Below are positions 25,989 through 30,112 of a stretch of 50,742 nt of DNA, piece after piece. Numbering within the stretch: the first letter of the stretch is position 1; each line of letters starts with the position of its first letter. Source of the stretch: Vulcanisaeta sp. (lineage in GTDB: Archaea > Thermoproteota > Thermoprotei > Thermoproteales > Thermocladiaceae); NCBI GenBank assembly GCA_023256215.1, contig JAGDXB010000053.1, forward strand, positions 9,192 through 59,933. Direction: 5' to 3'. The translations under genes and the position numbers were made by a program. The notes below the pieces were generated by a model. The model was not told where the DNA came from. It made no database searches and was given only the letters and a program-made list of their open reading frames with translations.

Positions 25989-26583
25989 TTATAAAAACTA
26001 TCGTAATAATATCTTCAAAAAAGTAATGTCCTGAATACATAACCACCAACTTATAATTGCAATCTCTAAGTAGTTTTATCACCTCTTCCCAATCTGATAA
26101 CGATGATAATGTCAGCACGACAATATCGGCTTTGTTGCCTATACATACCTCATTTACTAACCGCTTAGCAATCTCAATACCACCTAACCCACCGAATATC
26201 CTCCAATCCTCACTCCAATCACCGGGTAAGTAAGGAGGATTACTAACGATAATATTAAAGTGTGCATTATCCCTAATTGCATCAAGAGTGCTTGTTGAAA
26301 CCACATCAACATACTCATAAAGGTTATTGTTCACCAGGTTAAGTTTCGTGTTTGTTGCAGCTAAGTAATCATGGTCTATGGCTAATACCCACACTCCCAC
26401 GTTGTTTTTTAGGGATTCGCTCACTGCCGTCAGCGTTAAGACGCCCGAACCTGAACCCACATCAACTATCTTCAGCATGGTGCTGTTTCCTGCAAGGTGT
26501 TTTACGACCCAGCTAAGGATCCTTGCAGTTTGCCAAGAATCCTCGGCGGGAGGATAGACGCCGTCTAGTATCACTAATTTCAT
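25981..26583 (-). CDS. HemK/Mtq2-family protein-glutamine methyltransferase
   Basis: 200 residues. The N-terminus VYPPAEDSWQTARIL is the hallmark of the Mtq2/archaeal HemK group, motif I is KIVDVGSGSGVLTLTAV, and the catalytic IVSNPPYLPGDW holds the NPPY loop used for glutamine N5 methylation. The likely target is the GGQ glutamine of aRF1; eukaryotic and archaeal members work with a Trm112 partner, which is not in this window. The gene begins 3 nt after the winged-helix membrane gene and shows no own TATA at the right distance, so the two are probably co-transcribed. Confidence 0.87.
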   Translation of the reverse strand: MKLVILDGVYPPAEDSWQTARILSWVVKHLAGNSTMLKIVDVGSGSGVLTLTAVSESLKNNVGVWVLAIDHDYLAATNTKLNLVNNNLYEYVDVVSTSTLDAIRDNAHFNIIVSNPPYLPGDWSEDWRIFGGLGGIEIAKRLVNEVCIGNKADIVVLTLSSLSDWEEVIKLLRDCNYKLVVMYSGHYFFEDIITIVFIIS

Positions 26584-26586
26584 AGT

Positions 26587-27405
26587 TTACTTAAATAGCA
26601 GTATGTAAATAATCACCGATGGTATTAGGAGGAGTATTGTTTCGAAGAGTAGGGAGTATTCCATGGGTTTTCCAGAGGATATTGAGAGTACTGTGGCCAG
26701 TATTATTAGGCTGACTAGTGGTAATAATGCCTTTAGTAATGCATCTATTATTGATAGCGGAAATGGTGGGATCCAGGGCGTTATTACTGTTATGATCGTT
26801 GGATAAAGCATCGTGGGTATTAATGACGTAAGAATCCCACTTAATAATTTAATATCGATTATTTCACTACCAAGCAAATATCTATAAATAAAGAGTGCTA
26901 TACCTATGTAGGCGAGTATTGACATTACGGTTATACCTATAGGCATTAAGTAACTCCCCTCCACAAATACCAAGAGGAATAGCTCATAACTCTGTAAAAA
27001 CGATATGACCAAGCCTAAGGTTATTATTACTATTGAGTAAAGAAGGAGCACGTTAGCGCCAAGCCTATACATGTTCATTGTTAATGGTCTCATGAGTAAT
27101 ATATCCGTTAACTCCTCAGTTCTTGTGCCAACCCTCTCCTCACCCTGACTGGCACTCAATAACCCATCTACTTTTTCCATGAGCATCCTGCCCTTGCTTG
27201 TTATTTTTACGTAGGGACCGTCCCTGATTATAAGGCCGTTAGCCCTTAATATCTCGATATCGTAATAAACAGAGGATGCTGGTATATTTAGTATTTTTCT
27301 TAGGTCCGATATTCTCATCGTGCCTTGTTCCATTAGTATTCTAAGGATCTGCACCCTCCTTGGTCTTAGCAATATGTTGCTAAAGTCATCAAAATCCCTA
27401 CTCAT
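26587..27405 (-). CDS. Membrane-tethered winged-helix transcription regulator
   Basis: 272 residues. The first 75 form a winged helix of the ArsR/PadR kind (LLRPRRVQILRILMEQGTMRISDLRKILNIPASSVYYDIEILR shortened: the recognition helix is around IPASSVYYDIEIL), followed by a linker with charged residues and about five membrane helices from residue 108 to the end. Such one-piece membrane regulators sense an envelope signal directly. The effector is unknown. Its promoter is a TATA box shared with the divergent gene at 27459, so this protein could regulate both its own and that gene's transcription. HemK/Mtq2 follows 3 nt downstream. Confidence 0.75.
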   Translation of the reverse strand: MSRDFDDFSNILLRPRRVQILRILMEQGTMRISDLRKILNIPASSVYYDIEILRANGLIIRDGPYVKITSKGRMLMEKVDGLLSASQGEERVGTRTEELTDILLMRPLTMNMYRLGANVLLLYSIVIITLGLVISFLQSYELFLLVFVEGSYLMPIGITVMSILAYIGIALFIYRYLLGSEIIDIKLLSGILTSLIPTMLYPTIITVITPWIPPFPLSIIDALLKALLPLVSLIILATVLSISSGKPMEYSLLFETILLLIPSVIIYILLFK

Positions 27406-27427
27406 TACAGCAATACTTATAGAGTAA

Positions 27428-27436
27428 GTATAAAAG
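27428..27436. promoter_or_regulatory. Single TATA box serving two divergent leaderless genes
   Basis: GTATAAAAG, or CTTTTATAC on the other strand, is centred at 27432: exactly 27 nt before the ATG at 27405 (minus) and 27 nt before the GTG at 27459 (plus). I see no second box at a proper distance for either gene. Confidence 0.6.
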
Positions 27437-27458
27437 AGTTCTTTTCGGAGAGATTACT

Positions 27459-28349
27459 GTGGTTAACTTTGAGGATTTAAAGGTGATGCTGAGCACGTAC
27501 ATAGTAAGGAACAGGAAGGTTTCCTATCAGGATTTATTAAAGTGGTCATCAAGTAATAGGGTTGGTAACACGCTGCTCTACTTAATTATTAAGGAATTGA
27601 TTCGTGAAAAGAGGTTTAAAGCATCTGGGGAATACGTGATTGGAACTATAAGGGTGGGCGACAATGATATTAAATTGTCAATACCCATGTACATAGAGGT
27701 TGCTGGAACCACCGCAAAATCCGTGGGTGTGGCTAAACGCCAAGTTAAGCAAAGACCTGCTAAAAGTGCTAGTATACTTGATACCATAGGTAAGGAGGAG
27801 CAGGAAGGCTCTAGTGGCGTTAAAGGTGAGGAAAGAACAAAGGAGAAGGCAACGCTTGAAAAGACGGAAAAGCCTGTATCTACATCAGAACCGAGTAATA
27901 CTGAGGAGAGGCATAATGAAGGTATTAATGAGACCGAAAATAAGATTGAAGAAAAAACTACTGAAGGTAAAGTAGAGGTCATAACCGAACCGGAGAATAC
28001 TCTAAGCCTCGCTGATTATTCATCAATTTCAACTGATAGTTTCATGACGCTATTGAGAAATGCAGTTAGCGAGGAGGTACCGCAGAACAGGGAGGAGGCG
28101 TTTAAGATAGCTGTGGCTATGTTGGCATACTTATCGAAGTATTGGAGTGTTGGGGAGTTGAGACTAAAGCTTGATGTTGCCAGGCAGTTTGGTGGTGTTA
28201 ATGAGAACACCCTGAGGATTGAGGATGGGGTATTACGGGCTCTTAGAAAGATGGGCTTAGTAGAGGTTGTGGAACCTGGTGTGGTTAATAGGGTTAAGGA
28301 GTTGCCTAAGGATTTTATTAAGGTAAGGCTTGATTCGCTATTTACATAA
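27459..28349 (+). CDS. Hypothetical charged protein with winged-helix-like ends
   Basis: 296 residues in three parts. Residues 1-80 look like a small helical domain with a two-strand end (VSYQDLLKWSSSN, LIIKELIREKRFKASGEYVIG), compatible with a winged helix. Residues about 90-185 are low-complexity, rich in Glu, Lys, Ser and Thr, and probably disordered. Residues 190-296 are helical again with ALRKMGLVEVVEPGVVNRV, another winged-helix-like end. I do not recognise the family. It starts with GTG, fixed by the shared TATA box. Paired divergence with a membrane regulator suggests a common signal; a chromatin or transcription role is a guess. Confidence 0.6.
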   Translation: MVNFEDLKVMLSTYIVRNRKVSYQDLLKWSSSNRVGNTLLYLIIKELIREKRFKASGEYVIGTIRVGDNDIKLSIPMYIEVAGTTAKSVGVAKRQVKQRPAKSASILDTIGKEEQEGSSGVKGEERTKEKATLEKTEKPVSTSEPSNTEERHNEGINETENKIEEKTTEGKVEVITEPENTLSLADYSSISTDSFMTLLRNAVSEEVPQNREEAFKIAVAMLAYLSKYWSVGELRLKLDVARQFGGVNENTLRIEDGVLRALRKMGLVEVVEPGVVNRVKELPKDFIKVRLDSLFT

Positions 28350-28360
28350 TAAGATCTTTA

Positions 28361-28711
28361 TTACGCAGCCAGTTGCTTGATTCTATTAGGCGTCGTATAC
28401 ACCTCAGTCCTGTGACCCTTAGAGACAAGTACTAAGGCGCCCTTGCTGGCTAATGCCCTTAATATTTGATATGCTGTACTAATCTTAGTATTAAACCTGC
28501 TAGCCACCAGGTATGGTGTTACGTACTCCCATTTAGTGACTTCCTTCTCAACATCGCTTAATAGTTTAGGATCTACCAACGATGCCTTTGCTGTTTGTCT
28601 CTCCTCAGTGGTGGGTTTTTTACCCTTAGCAGTTGGTTTTGCCTGGGCTGCCTGCTGTTTCTCCTGTTTCTTAGCTAATTGTGATAACGTTGGTTTCTTC
28701 TTTCCACCCAT
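28361..28711 (-). CDS. Small ribosomal subunit protein eS25
   Basis: 116 residues. The N-terminal third is a Lys/Ala/Gln-rich tail (KKQEKQQAAQAK) of the kind found in archaeal and eukaryotic eS25; the rest is the conserved winged-helix fold with VEKEVTKWEYVTPYLVASRF and STAYQILRALASKGALVLVS. eS25 is part of the 30S head in Thermoproteota and eukaryotes and is missing in Euryarchaeota, which supports the taxonomic call. A TTG three codons upstream is in frame, but the family-typical MGGKKKP start at 28711 is better placed behind TTTATAAATTA (28740-28750). It is divergent from TBP. Confidence 0.9.
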   Translation of the reverse strand: MGGKKKPTLSQLAKKQEKQQAAQAKPTAKGKKPTTEERQTAKASLVDPKLLSDVEKEVTKWEYVTPYLVASRFNTKISTAYQILRALASKGALVLVSKGHRTEVYTTPNRIKQLAA

Positions 28712-28834
28712 GCTGATCAAGTATACGTAGCATCCCGACTTTATAAATTATTCTTTGTGGCTCAGTACATTAGAGGTAATATAATTGCAGCTGTATCGGA
28801 AAGGCTTTTTAAGTGCTTTTTTAAATCATGAATG

Positions 28835-29416
28835 ATGCCAAATCCCACTTATCGTATTGAGAATATCGTTGCTACGGTAAACCTCGGCGTCGATTTAGAC
28901 CTAGATAAACTCGCCGAAAGACTTCATGCTGCTGAGTATAATCCTGAGCAGTTTCCTGGGCTTATCCTTAGGCTACAGAGGCCTAAGATATCGGCATTAA
29001 TATTCAGGACGGGTAAGATGGTGTGTACAGGTGCCAAGAGTGAGAATGAGCTTAAGAGGGCTGTTAAGGAATTGGTCAGACTACTCAATGAGCATGGCGC
29101 CGATGTACCGTTGACCCCGGAGATACAGGTGCAGAATATAGTTGCCTCAGGCAATCTGCATGCCGAGGTTGATATTGAGAAGTCAGCCCTAATGCTTGAG
29201 AATTCTATGTATGAGCCCGAGCAATTCCCTGGGCTCATTTATAGAATGGATGATCCAAAAGTCGTTTTGCTAATATTCAGTTCCGGCAAGATAGTATGCA
29301 CGGGCGCTAAGAAGGAGGCCCAGGTTAAGGATGCCGTCTTTAAGATACATGATGTCCTTAAGGACATAGGAGCCCTGTACGAGGAAGAGGTTAGTAAGGA
29401 AGAGGAGGAGATTTGA
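28835..29416 (+). CDS. tbp: TATA-binding protein
   Basis: About 193 residues, the single-domain archaeal TBP that nucleates transcription initiation with TFB. The internal duplication is plain: EQFPGLILRL...GKMVCTGAK in the first half and EQFPGLIYRM...GKIVCTGAK in the second, each with the intercalating Phe residues in the LIF strands (ALIFRTGK, LLIFSSGK). The C-terminal tail is acidic (EEEVSKEEEEI), as in many archaeal TBPs. ATG codons at 28832 and 28835 are both possible; a TTTTTAAG box near 28805-28813 fits either. Two genes follow with 3-nt and 1-nt gaps, forming an operon with an unknown protein and Hjc. Confidence 0.96.
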   Translation: MPNPTYRIENIVATVNLGVDLDLDKLAERLHAAEYNPEQFPGLILRLQRPKISALIFRTGKMVCTGAKSENELKRAVKELVRLLNEHGADVPLTPEIQVQNIVASGNLHAEVDIEKSALMLENSMYEPEQFPGLIYRMDDPKVVLLIFSSGKIVCTGAKKEAQVKDAVFKIHDVLKDIGALYEEEVSKEEEEI

Positions 29417-29419
29417 TTT

Positions 29420-30112
29420 ATGTTTCCTGAGGCAGTGCCCATAATAACACGGGGTATTAAGCACATACCTAAGTTGGTATTTACGAGTAAATTAGCCCTG
29501 GAGCTCAATAATGACATGGACTTTAGAATTATCAAGAGAATAAAATCATTGGGCAAGGAGGTATTTGGCATAGCTAGAATTAATAACGAGCTGAACGCAA
29601 GGATACCAAAGACCCTGGATCAATTCGATAAGGCAATAATAATACTAAACTCTAGGGTTGGGATGTCATGGATTAGGTACATAATGGGTCTCGTAAATAC
29701 GACTATTGGCCTGACACTTGATGCATTAATGAAGTTCATAGAGTTGAAGCCGCATTTACTTAACCTGCCCAATGAACTGTTGATAGATCCAATAATAGAT
29801 GATGGTGTTCAAATACTACCGAAGGATTTATCGAAACAAGTAATTGAATGGCTCATGGACTATGTCGATTCAGGAGGCGACCTCTATATATTGGTTAGGG
29901 ATGGCTCATTAAATAACATTGATTTGATTTCGCACTCAAGTCTGGTGTTTTCGTACGATATTAAAATAGCGGAGGTTTACAATAGTATTGTCAAAGGTAA
30001 TTTAGGAAATACCGTAAGGGCTAATTGCGATTTTTGTGGTGGCTCACCCAGCCCAATATGCGTATTATTATGTCCGAATATCGAGATCATTAAGGAGTTG
30101 AGGGTTGAGTAG
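29420..30112 (+). CDS. Hypothetical protein in TBP operon with C-terminal cysteine cluster
   Basis: 230 residues. The main part is alpha/beta with a conserved-looking hydrophobic core and acidic turns (IIDDGVQILPKDLSKQV, SGGDLYILVRDGS) and no membrane span. The C-terminus carries CDFCGGSPSPICVLLCP, four Cys in about 15 residues, a likely zinc or Fe-S site. I do not recognise the family. It starts 3 nt after TBP, with GGAGG at about 29405-29410 as ribosome binding site, and ends one base before Hjc, so it is translated from the same mRNA. A transcription- or DNA-repair-related role is suggested only by this context. Confidence 0.65.
   Translation: MFPEAVPIITRGIKHIPKLVFTSKLALELNNDMDFRIIKRIKSLGKEVFGIARINNELNARIPKTLDQFDKAIIILNSRVGMSWIRYIMGLVNTTIGLTLDALMKFIELKPHLLNLPNELLIDPIIDDGVQILPKDLSKQVIEWLMDYVDSGGDLYILVRDGSLNNIDLISHSSLVFSYDIKIAEVYNSIVKGNLGNTVRANCDFCGGSPSPICVLLCPNIEIIKELRVE

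Follow-up and report, generated by a model that had tools for sequence, protein, structure and literature searches.

In a window of 50,742 nucleotides from Vulcanisaeta sp., by which we mean the whole stretch of DNA that was analysed (genome G000), two divergent protein genes, here called gene m and gene p, likely share one TATA box, as judged from the sequence. The spacer of 53 nt between them (TACAGCAATACTTATAGAGTAAGTATAAAAGAGTTCTTTTCGGAGAGATTACT) is, with good probability, one bidirectional BRE-TATA-BRE core promoter from which two leaderless mRNAs would arise, with gene p perhaps transcribed from a second box as well. In fact the centre of the box lies exactly midway between the two genes, just as the original prediction had it, being 27 nt from the A of the ATG (27405, -) and 27 nt from the G of the GTG (27459, +). 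This geometry is conserved in the genus, the motif is two-sided, and divergent starts at the same spacing recur genome-wide.

The two genes and their common spacer

The features of the locus are collected in Table 1. In both genes the start codon is the first possible one of the frame, and the alignment of each product with its relatives begins at the chosen start codon. For gene m, the ArsR-type winged helix covers residues 15-59, and a low-confidence model places long hydrophobic helices after it, which fits a membrane-tethered regulator, the role that had been ascribed to one of the two genes; its named relatives all belong to Vulcanisaeta. For gene p, no match of weight was obtained from Pfam, NCBIfam or the PDB, and a fold search with a low-confidence model returned nothing at E <= 0.001. 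In gene p the N-terminal part forms a compact helix-strand domain that has no significant match in the PDB, and the linker is charged and variable (27459-28349; L009, L011, L012, L013); moreover, its frame is seemingly broken in four draft genomes (G002, G003, G005 and G008), perhaps by sequencing error. About 0.5 kb past gene p there is a gene for the TATA-binding protein, with that of ribosomal protein S25e between the two. As for RNA elements, Rfam gave no match in 26000-29500.

Table 1. Coordinates of the genes and of the sequence features discussed in the text
Feature	Position	Strand	Remarks
Gene m	26587..27405	-	272 aa, ATG start; ArsR-type winged-helix domain and predicted membrane helices
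Second BRE+TATA-like site, AGCAATACTTATAGAGTA	27409..27426	+	13 nt upstream of the shared box register; 8.7 bits
Inverted repeat ATACTTA-N5-TAAGTAT	27413..27431		Overlaps the putative shared box; possible operator, weak
BRE-like AGTAAG, rightward	27423..27428	+	Genome BRE consensus AGWAA; unchanged in 12/12 genomes
Putative shared TATA box	27429..27435		TATAAAA on +, TTTTATA on -; centre 27432
BRE-like AAGAACTC, leftward (GAGTTCTT on +)	27436..27443	-	Its AA falls at -35/-34, where the genome consensus also has it
Gene p	27459..28349	+	296 aa, starts with GTG; both the N- and the C-terminal part conserved, variable linker between
Ribosomal protein S25e	28361..28720	-	Between gene p and the TATA-binding protein gene
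TATA-binding protein gene	28832..29416	+	Downstream of gene p

A BRE-like stretch stands on each side of the box, with its AA pair in the usual place or no more than one base away from it, both matches being partial. When a BRE+TATA matrix trained on the complete Vulcanisaeta genome G004 is applied, the box gives 5.6 bits leftward and 3.2 bits rightward; for gene m this is the best-scoring site, and no other box is seen. Each start codon is about 27 nt from the TATA centre and has no conserved Shine-Dalgarno sequence before it, as is expected of leaderless genes; the GGAG found 8 nt before the GTG of gene p in the window species is not conserved.

All 12 Vulcanisaeta genomes examined contain the gene pair. 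The start-to-start distance is 54-55 nt in eleven of them and 57 nt in G011, and the starts always flank a single central box, at 27 nt on each side in the window. The box itself is identical in 11/12 genomes, with TATTTAAA in the remaining one, while an 18-mer around it (GTAAGTATAAAAGAGTTC) is identical in eleven and reads GTAAGTATTTAAAGGTTC in G011. This 18-mer occurs once in each of the eleven genomes, by which a regulon built on it as a repeated operator is ruled out. In the 12-way alignment AGTAAGTAT is unchanged throughout and the flanks drift on both sides, and the GAGTTC of the leftward BRE-like stretch is the same in 11 of the 12. The conserved footprint consists of the box with one BRE-sized stretch on each side, and the central box is the sole promoter element common to all twelve genomes. 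Considering that over the same genomes the protein identity to the window is only 57-78% in the case of gene m, and 44-62% in that of gene p, the block is strongly constrained.

A second rightward box and other readings of the spacer

It had also been claimed that neither gene has any other suitable box, a condition that the published definition of such bidirectional promoters does not contain. This holds for gene m, where the shared box is the best site, and is not borne out for gene p, for which the G004-trained matrix gives 8.7 bits to a rightward site at 27409-27426, more than to the shared box in the same direction. The second site reaches 8.7 bits in seven of the twelve genomes and 5.3 bits in two, and it is missing in three (G009, G006 and G011; loci L007, L008 and L010), which retain gene p, its GTG, the spacing and the central block. 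The leader predicted from this site has about 12 nt (GGAGAGATTACT). With a better-scoring box 13 nt upstream in 9/12 genomes, the reading as a shared promoter is weakened for gene p.

The spacer might then hold two overlapping one-way promoters, with the central box serving gene m and 27415-27422 (AGCAATACTTATAG) serving gene p, whose mRNA would have the short leader just mentioned and a weak GGAG. The higher score of the upstream site (8.7 against 3.2 bits) speaks for such an arrangement, as does the fact that the leader would open with GGAGAG in the window species. However, the site is lost at L007, L008 and L010 despite the preservation of gene p, the leader sequence is not conserved, and the AGTAAG on the + side of the central box stays unchanged in all twelve genomes, so that we regard this arrangement as unlikely. 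Still less probable is that the block is mainly an operator, at which the winged-helix regulator encoded by gene m would bind ATACTTA-N5-TAAGTAT over the box and repress both genes. The 7+7 inverted repeat is perfect and overlaps the TATA box, and gene m does encode a DNA-binding domain; but the left arm of the repeat is lost at L007 and L008 where the box block is retained, such a repeat is present in 9% of shuffled spacers, and the block has a single copy per genome, hence no regulon is built on it. Moreover, an operator is compatible with a shared promoter and does not exclude it. As for mere coincidence, the spacer is AT-rich and TATA-like words are common, and gene spacing together with an AT-rich stretch could in principle put a box midway by chance; yet the position, the spacing and the sequence are conserved in 12 species and the genome has an excess of pairs at the identical start spacing, which makes this explanation very hard to believe.

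Divergent starts near 54 nt in the genome and in relatives

In the complete genome G004, the genes were called by a coding-only rule that ignores promoters. In the mean upstream profile the start codons are immediately preceded by a TATA box whose centre is near -27, with an A-rich BRE farther out, at about -38 to -34; leaderless starts with a box at 27 nt are therefore the usual form in the genus. Among the 404 divergent pairs of this genome, a count of starts 53-55 nt apart, which had been proposed at the outset, gives 15 pairs (8 of them at 54 nt) against 3.6 expected from the neighbouring distances of 40-52 and 56-80 nt (Poisson P 7e-6). The P value is 0.002 when the denser range of 56-130 nt is taken as the baseline. 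The excess becomes smaller under cruder start rules, which give 10 to 15 pairs against 4.5 to 5.8 expected, and 17 divergent pairs fall in a different window of 3 nt, namely 98-100 nt. A second cluster of divergent start spacing is found at 97-101 nt (22 pairs in G004; L037-L151), and it may represent two back-to-back promoters at a preferred distance. In G028, from genus g5 of the order, a small sample of 400 kb contains 69 divergent pairs, of which 4 have starts spaced by 54-55 nt and 5 have starts spaced by 45-50 nt.

In nearly all of the 53-55 nt pairs in G004, the TATA box at the centre of the spacer is in register with the one gene as well as with the other, and altogether the arrangement recurs at some 15-20 further pairs of this genome. 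For divergent pairs of 50-58 nt, the median antisense score at the box is 6.9 bits, compared with 3.3 bits in head-to-tail promoters of similar sense score (P 4e-11), a comparison slightly biased by the training of the matrix on all G004 promoters, divergent pairs included. The higher antisense scores therefore indicate that these spacers are built for both directions.

Four further divergent pairs, with domain names from Pfam, were traced across the genus. For HMG-CoA reductase and thiolase, which plausibly belong to one pathway, the starts are 53-56 nt apart around one box in 12/12 Vulcanisaeta (G004 L149:4386-6848; L172-L183), and GTGAAGTTTTTAA and ATTCCCT in the spacer are unchanged. The pair of Dph5 and isocitrate dehydrogenase has a spacing of 52-55 nt, likewise around one box, in most Vulcanisaeta genomes; for DUF371 and tyrosyl-tRNA synthetase the same 52-55 nt, again with one box, is found in nine and lost in two, where the spacer has grown to 118-125 nt; and the translin and MOFRL pair has 52-55 nt in eight and a different spacing in others. 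Since the spacing is kept or lost in this way, shared boxes persist over genus-level time and are sometimes replaced. In deeper relatives of gene m and gene p, genus g3 of the family (L014, L015, L016, L018) has a single box in the spacer, the starts being 61-64 nt apart, while genus g2 (L019-L023) has a related box for gene p, AAGTAAGTTTTA, and a separate box for gene m about 25 nt away. The shared design is therefore not essential but changeable, the family having either acquired or lost the shared box in the course of its evolution.

Possible mechanism, meaning and comparison with known systems

On the preferred reading of a shared promoter, TBP would bind the near-symmetric TATAAAA, and TFB would dock on either of the BREs and in this way set the direction. 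RNA polymerase would then start about 27 nt from the box centre, either way, at the start codon itself, and produce leaderless mRNAs of gene m and gene p; in the window species and eight others, gene p may have an extra start from the second rightward box with a leader of about 12 nt. The original idea that the promoter fires both ways gains from the conservation in 12/12 genomes, from the excess at 53-55 nt, from the BRE-like AA on both sides and from the precedent in PMC6640164, and is weakened for gene p by the second box. We infer further that two pre-initiation complexes would exclude each other, as one box could hardly carry both at once, and by purely steric logic competition between the gene m and gene p transcripts is possible in principle. 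More generally, we see about an even chance that Vulcanisaeta has some 15-20 selected single-TATA promoters, each with two leaderless protein genes, at which TFB orientation fixes the mRNA ratio.

Archaeal bidirectional promoters have so far been described mostly as a source of antisense noise. If the present reading is true, the conserved set of mRNA-mRNA cases, which often involve housekeeping genes, would mean that cells also employ shared TATA boxes for gene expression and preserve them for this purpose, and that mRNA ratios are set at one TBP-DNA complex, for example between HMG-CoA reductase and thiolase or between a membrane-linked regulator and its neighbour. Such spacers would also offer short natural templates for the orientation choice of TFB and for competition between directions. 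That a single TATA box of an archaeon can start transcription both ways has already been shown in Pyrococcus furiosus (PMC6640164); the present analysis adds a genome-wide set of putative mRNA-mRNA cases in which the spacing is fixed near 54 nt.

The Vulcanisaeta spacer resembles the BRE-TATA-BRE promoters of P. furiosus, in which a BRE flanks the single TATA box on either side and the starts lie on opposite strands (PMC6640164); for TBP/TFB orientation, the classical basis cited there is Cox 1997 and Bell 1999. Transcripts in both directions were obtained in vitro from one P. furiosus box, 49 bp apart, the starts in general being about 49-50 bp apart with in vitro confirmation for the PF1918 promoter (PMC6640164), whereas the starts of the Vulcanisaeta pair are 54 nt apart. 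Moreover, the clear cases of P. furiosus combine an mRNA with a presumed non-functional antisense RNA, while in Vulcanisaeta both sides are conserved protein genes that are apparently leaderless. A near-symmetric core element that accepts the polymerase in either orientation is likewise the feature of the bidirectional promoters known from bacteria and archaea (Warman et al. 2021, Nat Microbiol, as cited in PMC10268837; PMC12825309 as the follow-up in E. coli), which in the E. coli and Salmonella chromosomes are placed most often between divergent genes. The bacterial ones described there share a -10 element with starts 18 bp apart, in contrast to the putative shared TATA box and starts 54 nt apart in Vulcanisaeta, and in E. 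coli competition occurs only with one direction strongly activated (PMC12825309). Finally, taken singly, either half of the spacer agrees in its distances and in the order of its motifs with the ordinary leaderless crenarchaeal promoter, which has a BRE and a TATA near -27, and it differs from the latter in that one box would serve two genes.
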